A stretch of 64,000 bases of DNA, from assembly GCF_014207745.1 (NCBI RefSeq), contig NZ_JACHJB010000002.1, positions 248,001-312,000 on the forward strand. The letters run 5' to 3'. Below are positions 41,237 to 47,980 of the stretch, in pieces (the first letter of the stretch is position 1; each line of letters begins with the position of its first letter). Under the pieces are notes generated by a model. The model saw only the letters and a list, made by a program, of their open reading frames with translations, had not been told where the DNA came from and did no database searches. Both the position numbers and the translations under genes were made by a program. The DNA is from Nonomuraea muscovyensis. Lineage in GTDB: Bacteria > Actinomycetota > Actinomycetes > Streptosporangiales > Streptosporangiaceae.

Positions 41237-44200
41237 TCAGCCGGGGTCACCGTCCACCAGGGACCGAGCCTGCTCGGGCGTCAGCTCGGCGCCCCGCGCC
41301 AACAGCGCGGCACAGCCGGGAGCGGCGCCCTCCACGGCGGCCGTGATCCGCTCCAGCTCGGCGCGGTCCGAAGCGGACAGTGCCTGACCGGCCCGGCGCC
41401 GGGCGCCGGCGGCCGCGCCGAGCAGTTCGGCGGCCAGCGCGGGCCGCCCGCCCCGCACCAGCGCGTCGGCCATGCCCGCCAGCGCCCAGGCCACGCCGGG
41501 CGGCGAGCCCAGCTCCCGGGACACGTCGAAACCCTCCCGGTGCCGGGCCAGCGCCGTGGCCGGGTCGCCCCGCTGCCCGGCCAGCAGTCCGAGCTCGACC
41601 AGGATCATCGGCAGGTACGGCGGGTGGCCGCCGCCGCTCTGCTGCTCGCGGGCCGACGCCAGCAGCCACCGCAGGTGCTCCTCGGCCGCCTCCGACCGGC
41701 CGGACCGGCGGGCCGCGAACGCCAGGCTGATGGCCGCGAACACCTCCCCGACACGCTGTCCCTGCTCGGCGGACAGCCGCCGGGCCCGCTCGGCGTGCTC
41801 CATCGCGCTCGCGTAGTCGCCGTCCTGCACGCAGATCCACGCCAGCCAGGCCAGTCGGCCGGCCACGTCGGGCCACAGTCCCAGGTCCTCGGCGATCCGC
41901 AGCCCGTCCTTGCTGAGCCTGGCCGCCTCCGCCTGGTCGCCGGTCAGGTCGGCGAGGGCGATCAGCCAGTCGGTGGCCTGGAGCACGCCCCAGTCGTCAC
42001 CCAGCTCATCGAACAGCTCGGCGCTGCGCCGCGCGTCACGCTCCAGGGCGGCCAGGTCGTGCCGGATGTGCGCGAGCATGGCGCGGGTGCTCAACACCGC
42101 CGCCTCGCCCCACCGGTCGCCCGCGGCCCGGAACGTGTCGAGCGCGGGCTCCAGCAGCGCGCCGGTGACCTTCTCGTCGCCGAAGTCGATGACCGCCGTG
42201 GCCAGGACCCAGGCGGCTCGGGCCCGCCCGAGCGGGTCCGCCGCCTTCTCGAACCCGTGCAGCGCCGACGCCGCCCGCTCGGGGCCGGCCTGCCCCTGCC
42301 GGATCTCCAGGGCGGCGCACCAGGCCTCGGCCGCGGCACGGACCGCGGCGGGCGCCTCGCCCGGCACCGCCAGTGCCGCCGACAGGGCCCGCCGGGCCTC
42401 GGCGAGCCGGCCGCGCATCAGCCAGTACCACGCCAGCGCCCCGGTGAGCCGCAGTGCCTGCTCGGCCGCGCCCTCACGCCGGAACGTGTCCAGGGCCGTA
42501 CGCAGGTTCGCGGCCTCGGCGTCCAGCCGGCGCAGCCATTCCCGCTGGCCGGGACCGCGCAGCAGCCGCTCGCCCCGTTCGGCCAGGGCCAGGTAGTGGT
42601 CGGCGTGCCGGCGCCGCAGCGCCGCCTCCTCTCCGGTGTGGCGCAGCCGGTCCAGGCAGTACGCGGAGACCGACTCCAGCAGCCGGAACCGGGATCCGTC
42701 ACCGCGCATCACCAGCGAACGGTCCACCAGCCCGGCCAGCACCTCCACGGCGTCGTCCCCCCGCCTGGCGACCCCCGCCCCGTCCTCGCGGCGGGCACGC
42801 ACGTCCTCGGCCGCGTAGCCGGTGTGCGCGGCCCCGGCATCGCCCTCGAAGCGCCCCTCGAAAAGGTCGCCGCACAGCGCCTCGACCGAGTCGAGGGTGC
42901 AGCCGCCGGCGTGTACGGCCAGCCGGCACAACACCGCCCGCTCCGCCGCGTCCAGTAGCTGCCAGCTCCAGTCGATCACCGCGGCGAGCGTGCGCTGCCG
43001 GACGGGCGCGTCCCGCGGGCCAGAGCCCAGAAGCCCGAACCGGTCGCGGGGCACCCGCAGCCGGGCCGCCAGCTCGGACACCCCCAGCGCGGGCACCCGG
43101 GTGGCGGCCAGCTCCAGCGCCAACGGGAGGCCGTCCAGCCGCCGGCACACCTCGGCGACCCTGGCGGCGGTCTCCGGCGCCGGCTCCAGCCCGGCGCGGG
43201 TCAGGAACAGCCGGACGGCGGGGGAGCCGGCCAGCCGGACCGGGTCGTCGGTGTCGGGGACGTCCAGCGGCGGCAGCTCCCAGCGGGCCTCGCCGCGCAG
43301 CCGCAGCGGCTCACGGCTGGTGGCCAGGACCCGCAGGCCGGACGCCGCCGGCAGCAGCGCCCCGGCCAGCGCGGCCGCCGGCTCCACCACGTGTTCGCAG
43401 TTGTCCAGCACCAGCAGGGTTCGCCGCTCGCGCAGCACGGCGGCCAGCCGCTCGGTCGCGGGCCTGGCGTCGCCCGGCGGATCCGGGATGGACAGCACGG
43501 ACAGGACCAGCTCGGCGAGGTCGCCGGACCCGTCCCAGGCTGTCAGGTCGACCAGCCACGCGCCGTCCGCGTGGGCGTTCGCCAGGGTGCGGGCCACCGC
43601 CAGGGCCACGCTGGTCTTGCCCACCCCGCCCGGCCCTGTGACGGTGACCAGCCGGCCGGTCGCCAGCAGTTCGCGCACCCGCTGGACGGCATGCTCCCGC
43701 CCGATCAGCTCGGTCACCGGCGCCGGCAGGTTGCCGGTGGGCCGGACCGGCCGCGCAGACGGCGCGTCCTCGGACGGGTCGCCGGCCAGGATGGCCCGGT
43801 GCAGCGCGGCCAGCTCCGGGCCCGGGTCCAGGCCCAGTTCCTCGGCCAGCCGGCACCGCAGCTCCCGAAAGCTTTCGAGCGCCTCACTCGCCCGGCCGGC
43901 CCGGTAGAGGGCCCGCATGTGGGCCGCGCGCAGCCGCTCGCGGTAGGGATGCCTCGCGACGAGCTCGCCCAGCTCGCCGACCAGCTCCTGATGGCCGCCG
44001 AGCTCCAGCCGGGCCTCGGCGTACGCCTCGGTGGCGGCCAGCCGCTGCTCCTCCCACCTGGCCACGGTCGTCCGGGCGAACCCCTCGTCGGCGAAGTCGG
44101 CCAGGGCCGGGCCCCGCCACAGGGCGAGCGCGTCGGCGAGCAGCCCGGTCCTGGCCCGCGGGTCGCCTGCCGCCCGAGCCTGCCCGGTCAGGGTCTCGAA

Positions 44201-44518
44201 CCTCTCCGCGTCCACGGCACCGGGCGCGGCCCGAAGCGCGTACCCCGGCGCCTGGGACACCACCAACTCCCGGCCGCCCGGCTCGACGGCGGCCAGGGCG
44301 CGGCGCAACTGCGAGACCCGCACGTGCAGCGCCGCCATGGGGTCGACCGGGGGTTTCTCACCCCACAGGTCGTCGACCAGCCGGTCCACCGACACCGCCC
44401 GCCTTTCGTGAACCAGCAGGTCGGCGAGCAGAACCCGCACCATGCGCCCGCGGATCGTGACCGGCTCGCCCCGGTCGGTCCACACGGCCAGCGGCCCCAG
44501 CACCTCGAATCGCACCAC
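41237..44518 (-). CDS. Large SARP/AfsR-type regulator (BTAD, NTPase, repeats)
   Basis: 1093 residues. Residues 1-95 form an OmpR-like DNA-binding domain (F-E-V-L-G-P-L, R-x-V-L-L-A-D-L-L, H-V-R-V-S-Q-L-R-R-A-L). Residues 95-245 are the bacterial transcriptional activator domain (F-A-R-T-T-V-A-R-W-E-E, Y-R-E-R-L-R-A). Residues 270-600 are a STAND-type NTPase with Walker A G-P-G-G-V-G-K-T-S and Walker B L-L-V-L-D-N-C-E-H. The last 450 residues are Ala/Leu-rich TPR-like helices. Such proteins switch on secondary metabolism or stress genes after ATP-driven assembly. No biosynthetic cluster is visible beside it, so its target is elsewhere or it is autonomous. Confidence 0.92.
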   Translation of the reverse strand: MVRFEVLGPLAVWTDRGEPVTIRGRMVRVLLADLLVHERRAVSVDRLVDDLWGEKPPVDPMAALHVRVSQLRRALAAVEPGGRELVVSQAPGYALRAAPGAVDAERFETLTGQARAAGDPRARTGLLADALALWRGPALADFADEGFARTTVARWEEQRLAATEAYAEARLELGGHQELVGELGELVARHPYRERLRAAHMRALYRAGRASEALESFRELRCRLAEELGLDPGPELAALHRAILAGDPSEDAPSARPVRPTGNLPAPVTELIGREHAVQRVRELLATGRLVTVTGPGGVGKTSVALAVARTLANAHADGAWLVDLTAWDGSGDLAELVLSVLSIPDPPGDARPATERLAAVLRERRTLLVLDNCEHVVEPAAALAGALLPAASGLRVLATSREPLRLRGEARWELPPLDVPDTDDPVRLAGSPAVRLFLTRAGLEPAPETAARVAEVCRRLDGLPLALELAATRVPALGVSELAARLRVPRDRFGLLGSGPRDAPVRQRTLAAVIDWSWQLLDAAERAVLCRLAVHAGGCTLDSVEALCGDLFEGRFEGDAGAAHTGYAAEDVRARREDGAGVARRGDDAVEVLAGLVDRSLVMRGDGSRFRLLESVSAYCLDRLRHTGEEAALRRRHADHYLALAERGERLLRGPGQREWLRRLDAEAANLRTALDTFRREGAAEQALRLTGALAWYWLMRGRLAEARRALSAALAVPGEAPAAVRAAAEAWCAALEIRQGQAGPERAASALHGFEKAADPLGRARAAWVLATAVIDFGDEKVTGALLEPALDTFRAAGDRWGEAAVLSTRAMLAHIRHDLAALERDARRSAELFDELGDDWGVLQATDWLIALADLTGDQAEAARLSKDGLRIAEDLGLWPDVAGRLAWLAWICVQDGDYASAMEHAERARRLSAEQGQRVGEVFAAISLAFAARRSGRSEAAEEHLRWLLASAREQQSGGGHPPYLPMILVELGLLAGQRGDPATALARHREGFDVSRELGSPPGVAWALAGMADALVRGGRPALAAELLGAAAGARRRAGQALSASDRAELERITAAVEGAAPGCAALLARGAELTPEQARSLVDGDPG

Positions 44519-44595
44519 CCAAGGCTACGGAACTCCATCCCGGCGCCCGGAAGCGCGATCGCTCCGGGCCTCCCGCACCGAGGTGCCGTTCTCGG

Positions 44596-45006
44596 GTCAT
44601 CCTCGACGTCCCGGGGAGCGGGCCGGTCGAGCAGCGTCGTGAGGTCACCGACGTCAGCCTCCCGTTCGTCTCGTTCCGCTGCACCTACCGGTTCCTGTCG
44701 GACGGCGCGGTCGTCACCTCCGACTCGACCCTCCGGTTCCGCAGCCGCGACGAGGTGGAATCTGATCTGCTCGCCCATGGCCACCGAGTGCTGGACGTGC
44801 GGGAAGCCCCTGATCGTCCAGGCCGTGAGTTCGTGTTCATCTCCGAGCGCATGGCCTCCCCGCCCCTCGACGGGAGGCGGTCGGGAACCGTCCTGCCGGA
44901 CCGCTGGCTCCGGCGCTGTGGCCGGACGGGAGCCGAGAGCGCAGCCGGACCCCCAGAACCACAGGAGAGCCGCGACGGCGAGGGTCCCGCGAGCCACCGC
45001 CGCTGA
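44596..45006 (+). pseudogene. C-terminal remnant of a SAM methyltransferase
   Basis: In frame from about 44596 the plus strand gives V-T-D-V-S-L-P-F-V-S-F-R-C-T-Y, then S-D-S-T-L-R-F-R and H-R-V-L-D-V-R-E-A-P-D-R-P-G-R-E-F-V-F. This is the typical end of actinomycete class I methyltransferases, normally followed closely by a stop. Here the frame runs on for about 50 more low-complexity residues to 45006. The SAM-binding half is absent; upstream is the promoter region of the AfsR-type gene. Confidence 0.6.
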
Positions 45007-45284
45007 CGTGTGACCTGACGTCGGCGCACCCGGGGCCGAGGGGTTGAGACGTCTGGTCACATCAATAAATCTACTTTGTAAAGGACGGGGGTTACGATGT
45101 CCCCGGCTCCATAATCAACACAACCTCGCGACGACCGCCCAGCGCACCGGCCACACCCGCGTCTGCATCGACATGACCAGCTGTTCGGCCACTACACCTA
45201 CGAGCATCTGGTCCGCGGACCGGCAGTGGGATACCTCGCGAAGGCGTACGAGTTCCGCCGGGACGCACGTCATGGACGGCTACC
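45007..45284. other. Gap with unidentified coding-like debris
   Basis: An AT-rich patch around 45058-45082 follows the methyltransferase remnant. Near 45170-45270 one plus-strand frame reads L-F-G-H-Y-T-Y-E-H-L and V-G-Y-L-A-K-A-Y-E-F-R-R, which looks like a real protein fragment of unknown family, without start or stop in context. Nothing else is supported. Confidence 0.3.
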
Positions 45285-45314
45285 GTCACAGGCGCGCTGG
45301 TGGCGTGCTAGGGT
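45285..45314 (+). promoter_or_regulatory. Candidate promoter of the rsgA leader
   Basis: GTCACA (45285-45290) and TAGGGT (45309-45314) are 18 bases apart, matching the actinomycete housekeeping pattern (TTGACR, TAGRRT) fairly well. Transcription would begin near 45321 and give a 5' leader of about 200 bases before rsgA, containing the 22-codon ORF and the hairpins. Confidence 0.4.
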
Positions 45315-45363
45315 TCTGATCGTTTGGTGTCGGATTCCTGGATGAGAAGGGGGGTGAGGTTTA

Positions 45364-45432
45364 ATGACCGCGGTGAAGACCGCTGCCGTGCGCAGCGCCC
45401 GGACATTCCTCACGTCCCGGGCCCCGGTCTGA
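45364..45432 (+). CDS. Possible 22-residue leader peptide upstream of rsgA
   Basis: ATG 45364 follows a strong ribosome binding stretch (AAGGGGGGTGAGG) at five to six bases. It opens a 22-codon frame rich in Ala, Val, Thr and Arg (M-T-A-V-K-T-A-A-V-R-S-A-R ... A-P-V) ending in TGA at 45432. It lies 92 bases before the TTG start of rsgA, with stable hairpins between. Short leader ORFs with such structures commonly control ribosome-related and antibiotic-resistance genes through ribosome stalling. Whether it is translated is not proven. Confidence 0.45.
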   Translation: MTAVKTAAVRSARTFLTSRAPV

Positions 45433-45444
45433 CCCACTTCTTCC

Positions 45445-45524
45445 CCTTGCCGTGAGTCGTTCGGCTCACCCGGCAGGGTGGTGTCTGCGTCTCGTCGGGG
45501 CCCCTTCCCGCAAGGTGTCTCACG
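45445..45524 (+). promoter_or_regulatory. Hairpin region between leader ORF and rsgA
   Basis: CCTTGCCG-TGAG (45445-45456) pairs with CTCA-CC-CGGCAGGG (45465-45478), giving a 12-bp stem with one G-U pair and a CC bulge. The same left arm could instead pair CCTTGC with GCAAGG (45510-45515), which contains the AAGG used as rsgA ribosome binding site, or CGTGAG with CTCACG (45519-45524), abutting the start codon. An outer GGGCCCCG/CGGGGCCC pairing (about 45418 with 45496) is also possible. The alternatives exclude each other, as in attenuators. Confidence 0.45.
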
Positions 45525-46607
45525 TTGCAAAACCTCTTCAGGGATCCATCCAACCTCGGCCTGTCCCGGTACGGATGGACCGAAACACTCGACAACGACT
45601 TCGCCGAACACCGCGAGGCCGGCCTGGTGCCGGCGCGGATCGCGCGTGTGGACCGCGGCCTGTGCGACGCGGTCACCGAGTCCGGCCCGGTGCGTGCCGG
45701 GCTCACGGCGCTGTACTCGCCCGATCCGCTCCTGGCGCCCTGCACCGGCGACTGGGCGGCGCTGCGCCCGGGGCCCGCTCCGGAACTGGTGGCCCTGCTG
45801 CCGCGTAGTAGCACGATCGTGCGTTCGTCCGCCTCCCGGTCCTCCCACGGGCAGCTTCTCGCGGCCAACGTCGATACCGTCGTCATCGCCGTCTCTCTCA
45901 CCGTCGCGCTGGACGCGGCCCGGCTGGAGCGGCTGCTGGCGCTGGCGTGGGACAGCGGCGCCCGGCCGCTGATCGTGTTGACCAAGGCGGATCTGGCCGC
46001 CGACGCCGCCGCCGTGCACGCTGAGGCGAGTGCGCTGGCACCGGGCGTGGACATCCTGGTCACCAGCGTGACCACCGGTCAGAACATCGATGTGCTGACC
46101 GCCTTGCTGAACGGCACCACGGTCCTGCTCGGCCCTTCGGGCGCGGGCAAGTCCAGTCTCGGCAACGCGTTGCTCGGTGACGAGGTGCTGGCCACCGGCG
46201 AGGTGCGGGCGCAGGACGGAAAGGGTCGCCACACCACCGTCCGCCGCGAGCTGGTTCCCCTTCCCGGTGGCGGTGTCCTCATCGACACGCCCGGCCTGCG
46301 CGGGATCAGCCTCTACGACGCCGCCGACGGTCTGGAACAGGTCTTCGCCGAGATCGAACGCCTCAGCGAGGACTGCCGCTTCGGTGACTGCGGCCACGAC
46401 ACCGAACCGGGTTGCGCCGTCCAGGCCGCCATCCGGGCGGGTGAGTTGACCGAACGCCGTCTCAACAGTTATCGCAAGCTGTTGCGCGAGAACGCGTGGG
46501 CGGCCTCGCGCACCGATGCCCGGCTGCGCGGCGAGCGGACCAACCGGCAGAAGGCCATCACCACCCATCTGCGCGCGACCTACAAGTTCAGGGACCAGCA
46601 GTCATGA
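45525..46607 (+). CDS. rsgA: Ribosome small-subunit-dependent GTPase A
   Basis: 360 residues from TTG 45525 (AAGG at 45512-45515). An N-terminal OB-fold region is followed by the circularly permuted GTPase order G4-G1-G3: V-L-T-K-A-D-L, then G-P-S-G-A-G-K-S-S-L-G-N-A-L, then D-T-P-G-L-R-G. The C-terminal zinc-binding segment C-R-F-G-D-C-G-H-x-x-E-P-G-C is intact. RsgA binds the 30S decoding region and releases assembly factors late in maturation. Genomes often carry more than one copy; this one, coupled to a methyltransferase-acetyltransferase and preceded by a leader, may be the accessory copy. Confidence 0.94.
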   Translation: MQNLFRDPSNLGLSRYGWTETLDNDFAEHREAGLVPARIARVDRGLCDAVTESGPVRAGLTALYSPDPLLAPCTGDWAALRPGPAPELVALLPRSSTIVRSSASRSSHGQLLAANVDTVVIAVSLTVALDAARLERLLALAWDSGARPLIVLTKADLAADAAAVHAEASALAPGVDILVTSVTTGQNIDVLTALLNGTTVLLGPSGAGKSSLGNALLGDEVLATGEVRAQDGKGRHTTVRRELVPLPGGGVLIDTPGLRGISLYDAADGLEQVFAEIERLSEDCRFGDCGHDTEPGCAVQAAIRAGELTERRLNSYRKLLRENAWAASRTDARLRGERTNRQKAITTHLRATYKFRDQQS

Positions 46608-47980
46608 CCGACCGCGTCCCGCCGGGCGGGCGCGGCTCCGCGCCTGCCCGTGTGCCGCAAGGAACGGCATCCGACGTTCGCGGCGCCTCGCCCGATCCGA
46701 TCACCGACCCCGGCGTGGCGGCGTTCTTCGCCCTGCACCATGGCCTGCCCCGCCAGGGTCCCGGCTCCGACGCGACCACCCGTCGCCTGCTGGCCATGGC
46801 CGGGCCGCTTCCGCCGCGTCCGCGTGTGCTGGACATCGGCTGCGGGCCGGGCCGGGCCTCGCTGCTGCTGGCACAGGAGGTCGCCGCCGAGGTCACCGCG
46901 GTCGACGTGCATCGGCCGTTCCTGGACGAGCTGACGCGCGCCGCCGCTGCCCGGGGCGTCGGCCACGCCATTCGCACGGTCGAGGCGTCGATGGCGGATC
47001 TGCCCTTTCCTGATGGGAGCTTCGACCTGATCTGGGCCGAAGGATCCGTCTACAACATCGGTTTCGACACCGCGCTGCACTCCTGGCGGCGGCTGCTCGC
47101 CCCTGGTGGCACGCTGGTCGTCACCGAATGCGAGTGGACCGCCGATTCCCCGTCCGTCGAGGCACAGGTGTTCTGGGAGCGGCACTACCGGCTGCGCACC
47201 CAGGCCCGGAACGCGGCCGCAGCGCGCGATGCCGGATATGACGTCGTCGCGTCGTACCCGCTTCCCGACAGCGACTGGTTCGGGGAGTACTACACGCCGC
47301 TTTCCGAACGAGCCGGCGCGGCCGACTTGACCGTGCCCGGGATGCGTGAGGCGGTCGCGGCCACCCTGCAAGAGATCATCCTGCGTCGTGAACATGGCGC
47401 GGACTACCAGTACACCGGTTACGTCCTGCGCCCGCAGGCGAGCACAGAAACGGATTTGAGCACTCCCATGACCACCTCCTGGATCACTCGTCCCGAGACC
47501 GCCGCCGACCTCGCCCAGATCCGCGAGGTCAACCTCGCCGCCTTCCCCACCTCTCACGAGGCCGACCTGGTCGAGGCCCTGCGCGCCGACTCGCAGGCGT
47601 GGATTCCCGGCCTGTCCTGGGTCACCGAGGCCCCTGACGGCTCCATTGCCGGATTCGCGCTGTTCACGCGCTGTCACGTCGACGGCTCTGCGGCGCTCAC
47701 CCTGGGCCCGTGCGCCGTCAGGCCTGAGTACCAGCGGTCGGGTGCCGGTTCGGCCGCCATCCGCGCGGGGCTGCAGGCGGCGCGTGAGCAGGGGGAGAAC
47801 CTCGTGCTCGTGCTCGGTCACGCCGAGTACTATCCGCGTTTCGGTTTCACCCCGGCCTCCGGCTACGCCATCCGGCCGCCTTTCGAGGTGGAGGACAAGT
47901 ACATGATGGCGCTTGTCTTCGACCCGAACGTGTCCGTGCCGACCGGTACCATCCGCTATCCGGCGGCGTTCGGCGTCTGA
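46604..47980 (+). CDS. Methyltransferase-acetyltransferase fusion protein
   Basis: 458 residues from ATG 46604, overlapping the rsgA stop by four bases. Residues about 30-280 are a class I SAM methyltransferase: V-L-D-I-G-C-G-P-G-R-A-S, V-D-V-H-R, S-M-A-D-L-P-F-P-D-G-S-F-D-L-I-W, P-G-G-T-L-V-V-T-E. After a short linker (T-E-T-D-L-S-T-P), residues 289-458 are a YhbS-like GNAT domain with L-G-P-C-A-V-R-P-E-Y-Q-R-S-G-A-G, L-G-H-A-E-Y-Y-P-R-F-G-F and V-E-D-K-Y-M-M. An in-frame ATG at 47468 could start the second domain alone but lacks a good ribosome site. Substrates unknown. Confidence 0.88.
   Translation: MTDRVPPGGRGSAPARVPQGTASDVRGASPDPITDPGVAAFFALHHGLPRQGPGSDATTRRLLAMAGPLPPRPRVLDIGCGPGRASLLLAQEVAAEVTAVDVHRPFLDELTRAAAARGVGHAIRTVEASMADLPFPDGSFDLIWAEGSVYNIGFDTALHSWRRLLAPGGTLVVTECEWTADSPSVEAQVFWERHYRLRTQARNAAAARDAGYDVVASYPLPDSDWFGEYYTPLSERAGAADLTVPGMREAVAATLQEIILRREHGADYQYTGYVLRPQASTETDLSTPMTTSWITRPETAADLAQIREVNLAAFPTSHEADLVEALRADSQAWIPGLSWVTEAPDGSIAGFALFTRCHVDGSAALTLGPCAVRPEYQRSGAGSAAIRAGLQAAREQGENLVLVLGHAEYYPRFGFTPASGYAIRPPFEVEDKYMMALVFDPNVSVPTGTIRYPAAFGV

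Follow-up and report, generated by a model that had tools for sequence, protein, structure and literature searches.

The window, a 64,000-nt stretch of the 9.2 Mb genome of Nonomuraea muscovyensis, carries a noncanonical rsgA homologue (PF03193, 160 bits; TIGR00157, 148.3 bits against a cut-off of 100) followed by a gene for a fused methyltransferase-GNAT protein (PF13649, PF08241 and PF00583, all above cut-offs), whose ATG overlaps the stop codon of the rsgA homologue. The leader of this gene pair contains a short upstream open reading frame (uORF), which ends 92 nt before the TTG start of rsgA at 45525, and several stems:

45309..45314, forward strand: TAGGGT, a candidate -10-like hexamer within TGCTAGGGT, proposed from a TGCTA motif in relatives
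45349..45359, forward strand: ribosome site of the uORF, GGGGGGTGAGG, 5' arm of stem P1 (consensus folds)
45364..45432, forward strand: uORF of 22 codons, ATG to TGA, MTAVKTAAVRSARTFLTSRAPV, conserved in relatives
45408..45418, forward strand: CCTCACGTCCC over the L-T-S codons of the uORF, 3' arm of P1 (RNAalifold consensus, both leader classes)
45419..45427, forward strand: GGGCCCCGG, last codons of the uORF, 5' arm of helix A (partner-swap test)
about 45443..45480, forward strand: middle hairpin (swap test, folding)
45496..45503, forward strand: CGGGGCCC, 3' arm of helix A, just upstream of the rsgA ribosome site (partner-swap test)
45503..45515, forward strand: CCTT-CCCGC-AAGG hairpin holding the rsgA ribosome site AAGG at 45512-45515 (shuffles 0/100)
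45525..46607, forward strand: noncanonical rsgA homologue, TTG start, 360 codons
46604..47980, forward strand: fused class I methyltransferase / GNAT acetyltransferase

Three RsgA homologues of this genome score above the Pfam cut-off: the window copy, a paralogue 51% identical to it, and a distant copy that is taken as the canonical RsgA. A protein tree places 47 noncanonical RsgA rows apart from the canonical copy (L001), which sits on a very long branch, and the window class clusters with one other row (L260) inside the noncanonical rows. The window gene is an accessory, noncanonical rsgA in an operon with the methyltransferase-GNAT protein, not canonical rsgA. An RsgA match of some kind occurs in all 54 genomes of the genus; in surveys of 394 genomes of the class, 54 gave RsgA matches at E <= 1e-100 and 67 gave GNAT homologues.

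Of the 88 leaders of the two classes described below (A1 and A2), 42 have the TGCTA motif 54-70 nt ahead of the uORF, and our guess is that the transcript starts near 45320, upstream of the uORF. A sigma-70 consensus scan of 45150-45560 returned no promoter. Four relatives (L017, L018, L019 and L021) have in common a block with inverted repeats just upstream of the promoter region; the repeat GTCCGTTTGGAC is found in all four and TACACAGGATGTGTA in two of them. Upstream of the leader and divergent from it is an ORF of 1093 aa (41237-44518, minus strand), whose product, we presume, resembles an AfsR/SARP-type regulator. An integrase remnant considered at about 45100-45300 was rejected for want of Pfam support.

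The first-pass annotation had described a 22-codon ORF with a strong ribosome site, 92 nt before the TTG, and this was borne out: a uORF with the L-T-S codons is present in all 27 leaders first read. Protein searches contributed 23 of these (L010-L031 and L034) and searches with leader DNA three (L039-L041), the window making up the total; L041 and L017, which share one leader, are both counted. A lack of conservation of ORF and stems in relatives, which that annotation had named as refuting its reading, was not what was seen; both are kept. A pattern scan of species genomes then gave 105 stretches, 80 of which were fetched. Class A1 comprises 55 leaders, after 13 sharing identical first 150 nt were dropped, and class A2 comprises 33 of 44 GNAT-first leaders, the 11 without a usable ATG start being left out. 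The L-T-S codons are CTC/CTT, ACG and TCC in 88/88 of these leaders; the pattern scan demanded these letters, and the 23 protein-found loci agree without that demand.

Three of the fetched loci were too short to read. In all 77 readable ones the leader is followed either by a noncanonical RsgA gene (37 loci) or directly by a GNAT gene (40 loci). A GNAT gene stands behind RsgA in 31 of the 37 RsgA-first loci, the remaining six ending 694-1742 nt from the leader, and a methyltransferase occurs in 14 of the 37 RsgA-first and none of the 40 GNAT-first loci. Thus, the leader travels with a GNAT operon that has taken in RsgA, in some cases together with the methyltransferase. Five loci (L056, L108, L117, L118 and L127) retain the leader and GNAT with only a truncated or fragmentary RsgA match; this decay of RsgA while leader and GNAT stay suggests that RsgA is the dispensable part. 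The leader was also found on Streptomyces plasmids, in two cases adjoining a Tn3-family transposase.

Surveys that started from the proteins gave a broader view of uORF occurrence. A strict filter asked for an ATG, a strong ribosome site and a length of 13-30 codons, at a distance of 60-420 nt from the gene. An upstream ORF of this kind lies before 88 of 96 noncanonical RsgA genes, as against 6 of 169 background genes; an earlier, looser filter had let through 30 of the 169. The 88 are made up of 26/29 loci fetched from the matches at E <= 1e-100 (including seven window-class leaders), 17/20 further loci, 38/40 Nonomuraea paralogues and 7/7 more paralogue loci, including that of the window genome. 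The one canonical rsgA gene examined has no such uORF (0/1). For the 51% RsgA paralogue the strict filter found a uORF at 45 of 47 loci, and the window-type leader is absent from six loci of this paralogue. The copy in the window's own genome (L003; C2:2475403-2476488, minus strand) has its own uORF, MRVCFSMPSVHLRVPA.

The L-T-S leader does not always precede GNAT genes, and that proposal was rejected: among protein-chosen GNAT homologues, 7 of 57 upstream regions carry the L-T-S uORF (three further genomes, L043-L045, have it too). In several of the other upstream regions there is a different uORF, 21-27 codons long and starting with MT or MA, and no uORF was found in 19 of 24 re-examined GNAT upstream regions. 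An 8-9-codon uORF, MSARQA..A, lies about 64-83 nt upstream of the GNAT match in L221-L224, L227, L229 and L231, seven GNAT genes that belong to one family of genomes. A gene pair on plasmids of Proteus, Providencia and Morganella, annotated as MerR regulator and N-acetyltransferase (L342, 4539-6223), aligns with 90% of the methyltransferase-GNAT protein, with 35% identity.

Three stems recur in these leaders. P1 was returned unasked by RNAalifold in two separate leader classes, the class consensus GGGAGGTGAGG pairing with CCTCACGTCCC. It is nearly invariant within a class, and partner swaps were as good as the real partners in 441/5000 cases in the window class and 1421/5000 in the Streptomyces clade (not significant); codon shuffles in 50 other leaders gave a mean z of -0.83, with many values near zero. 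In some other classes P1 is rebuilt in the same place with different letters, GGAGCTGAGG pairing with CTTCAGCTCC and GGAGGTG with CACCTCC, and outside the window class the case for this predicted stem comes mainly from such rebuilt sequences.

In helix A the last codons of the uORF pair with the bases just upstream of the rsgA ribosome site. When run on the complete window-class alignment, RNAalifold brings this helix out only partly because two leader types are one base out of register, and it was therefore tested per sequence. None of 5000 swaps and none of 100 shuffles was as stable as the real partners in the window class. Compensation is seen elsewhere (GGACCCCG with CGGGGTCC, and GGGCCTTGGC with GCCAAGGCCC), and a series of G-C, G-U and A-U pairs runs across Streptomyces leaders. 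For the ribosome-site hairpin of the CCTT/AAGG type, shuffles were never as good (0/100) and swaps were as good in 727/5000 cases in the window class. The same three stems, in other letters, are found in the RsgA clade of Streptomyces, for which 25 of the 27 leaders listed were used: helix A at 43/5000 swaps and 0/100 shuffles, the ribosome-site hairpin at 32/5000 swaps and 0/100 shuffles, and P1 at 0/100 shuffles. They are also recognisable by inspection in the Nonomuraea paralogue. Swap tests ignore shared descent, and the rebuilding of the stems between classes is the stronger argument. Rfam gave no match at E <= 1 for window positions 44500-46800 or at E <= 0.1 for five loci.

As judged from sequence comparison, then, the uORF is conserved, the downstream ribosome site lies in a conserved predicted structure, and nucleotides of the uORF are predicted to pair with the downstream leader. 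Since the conserved stems include the uORF, their formation must depend on its occupancy by ribosomes. Translational attenuators of the erm/cat type combine a leader peptide with a ribosome site in a hairpin, as does the window leader; they differ in that the ribosome's point of action would here be helix A, beside the ribosome-site hairpin, and in that the classical alternative pairing is without support in the window class. We consider it probable that the leader is a ribosome-sensing attenuator and, by analogy, that stalling turns the operon on. In the unstressed cell ribosomes would translate the uORF and leave it; all three stems (P1, helix A, ribosome-site hairpin) would form, and rsgA and the methyltransferase-GNAT gene would be poorly translated from the folded leader. 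If an antibiotic or some other block kept a ribosome in the uORF, that ribosome would cover the arms which the uORF contributes to P1 and helix A, so that the leader could refold and the operon be translated. The output would be a spare RsgA together with modifying enzymes that may aid recovery of the small subunit or detoxify the drug. On the best reading the leader belongs to a known type of attenuator, its targets and layout being new; the many GNAT homologues without an L-T-S leader are a point against it.

The form of attenuator first put forward for this leader was a different one. The first-pass annotation had proposed that an arm, CCTTGC-CGTGAG, forms a 12-bp hairpin with 45465-45478 or else pairs with the rsgA ribosome site and start region. 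The 12-bp hairpin, which is the middle hairpin of the list above, does fold as described (z -2.9 against letter shuffles), and its real halves beat all 5000 swaps across 51 leaders, in keeping with covariation; the region that forms it is absent from 4 of 55 leaders. The uORF is still present in these four (L018, L062, L084 and L123), as are the sequences for helix A and the ribosome site. Every partner sequence of the proposed switch occurs in the window, but CCTTGC, the partner of GCAAGG, is found in the middle region of only 3 of 55 related leaders, and CGTGAG together with a start-side CTCACG in only 2 of 55. Both pairings, being close to private to the window, were dropped as the switch, and with the middle region itself dispensed with in some leaders this mechanism is very improbable. 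The 1:3 pairing fares no better as a classical switch in the window class: several individual leaders look good, and 2346/5000 and 1447/5000 swaps and 89/100 shuffles were as good. It is weak in the Streptomyces clade (606/5000 swaps; 2/100 shuffles) and is backed in the Nonomuraea paralogue only, where the ribosome site of the uORF can also pair with the arm covering the rsgA ribosome site (2/3000 swaps). Conserved pairing links the uORF instead to the ribosome site that serves it and to the bases just upstream of the one that serves rsgA. Of the translation-attenuator idea, the conserved uORF, the structured ribosome site and the stems that involve the uORF have therefore stood, and the named alternative pairings have not; the idea is strengthened and widened, with conserved pairings in place of the named ones.

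The main rival shares these stems and reverses the sign. It holds that a ribosome at the end of the uORF blocks helix A and thereby frees CGGGGCCC to lengthen the ribosome-site hairpin, turning the operon off, and that helix A persists, with the operon on, when initiation is weak or when ribosomes halt at the uORF start or close to it. When a late ribosome is modelled on the uORF, the cost of opening the segment that includes both the rsgA ribosome site and the start codon goes up in 35 of 55 leaders and down in 11; masking the uORF tail alone raises it in 30 of 55, as this reading predicts. The class means near the uORF end also rise in all three classes folded: by 1.3-1.8 kcal/mol in the window class (30 of 55 leaders), 0.7-0.9 in the Streptomyces clade (22 leaders) and 0.2-0.6 in the Nonomuraea paralogue (30 of 34 parsed, of 44). 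A precedent is lmrC, for which the accessible part of the literature describes constitutive expression on disruption of uORF2. The reverse is seen, however, for the ribosome site alone, where the cost falls in 24 of 55 leaders and rises in 17, and in the window itself, where a late ribosome lowers both costs, by 0.5 and 1.3 kcal/mol. Masking the uORF ribosome site alone lowers the ribosome-site-to-start cost by 2.0 kcal/mol in the window; across the 55 leaders it raises the cost in 18 and lowers it in 21. Equilibrium folding of GC-rich RNA is rough, and as folding leaves the direction undecided, stalling-on is preferred because of the analogy with described drug-sensing uORFs; the opposite sign is possible, though we doubt it. 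Less likely again is that the leader acts on transcription, RNA polymerase being stopped, by an intrinsic or Rho-dependent route, unless a ribosome stalls in the uORF. Other actinomycete uORFs (wblC/whiB7, lmrC) are described as acting in this way, and the toiL leader of Escherichia coli includes Rho-dependent termination (PMC12121999), as far as the accessible sections of these papers go; yet the conserved stems here enclose the ribosome site, and a consensus scan of 45150-45560, whose scope takes in neither Rho sites nor terminators lacking a T run, found no terminator-like site and no terminator hairpin with a T run before the gene. That the uORF encodes a functional small protein, with the RNA stems incidental, would account for the conservation of the peptide end within a class, but it is hardly credible given that the peptides diverge widely between classes while the stems are rebuilt, and that covariation ties the final codons to RNA beyond the ORF.

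To return to the stalling-on attenuator, the closest described system is the E. coli toiL-topAI-yjhQ-yjhP operon, which, in the portions of the account available to us, is uORF-controlled and drug-induced and includes the GNAT protein YjhQ (PMC12121999). The likeness extends to a uORF, a YjhQ-like GNAT, a methyltransferase and proposed pairing of the uORF to the downstream leader. The window GNAT is 39% identical to YjhQ over 159 residues, as against 27% to YhbS; the window methyltransferase is a weak, generic relative of YjhP only (24%, E 2e-5). The operon described there has topAI between uORF and GNAT and, unlike the window, no RsgA; in the window rsgA takes the place of topAI, and at the 40 GNAT-first loci nothing does. 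Repression is there proposed to come from uORF pairing across the topAI ribosome site itself (PMC12121999), whereas the window uORF pairs just 5' of the rsgA ribosome site.

Among actinomycetes, uORFs tied to ribosome inhibitors have been described for wblC/whiB7, lmrC and are5sc/tiaA (PMC7157823, PMC8546547, PMC12421871); according to the accessible parts of these papers, they are mainly transcription attenuators and differ from the window leader in targets and uORFs. One of the same sources lists an RsgA pair of Streptomyces coelicolor, SCO6149 and SCO5211, among WblC-activated genes and their paralogues (PMC7157823). By the order of that list, as far as it is accessible, SCO6149 is the WblC-activated member of the pair, and it may belong to the noncanonical RsgA family described here. 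Within the open-licence literature, a coverage that leaves most subscription papers and bioRxiv outside, no uORF before rsgA was recognised.

The leaders taken together lead us to favour, with somewhat less assurance than the attenuator itself, a wider proposal: that the noncanonical RsgA GTPases of actinomycetes form a family-wide ribosome-stress response under uORF attenuators of shared layout (P1, helix A and ribosome-site hairpin), in which the sensor peptide varies by clade and the leader is also placed before YjhQ-like GNAT genes of resistance type, on chromosomes and plasmids. If this is true, a direct cis-acting sensor would tie small-subunit maturation to ribosome inhibition in antibiotic-producing bacteria, and the RsgA paralogues would gain a testable function. 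The leaders would be a source of numerous natural sensor peptides whose RNA partners are known, and the actinomycete leader-GNAT operons would form a second pairing of uORF sensing with an acetyltransferase of this type beside E. coli toiL-yjhQ. Trouble at the ribosome would then control ribosome-care or resistance-like genes in many actinomycetes.
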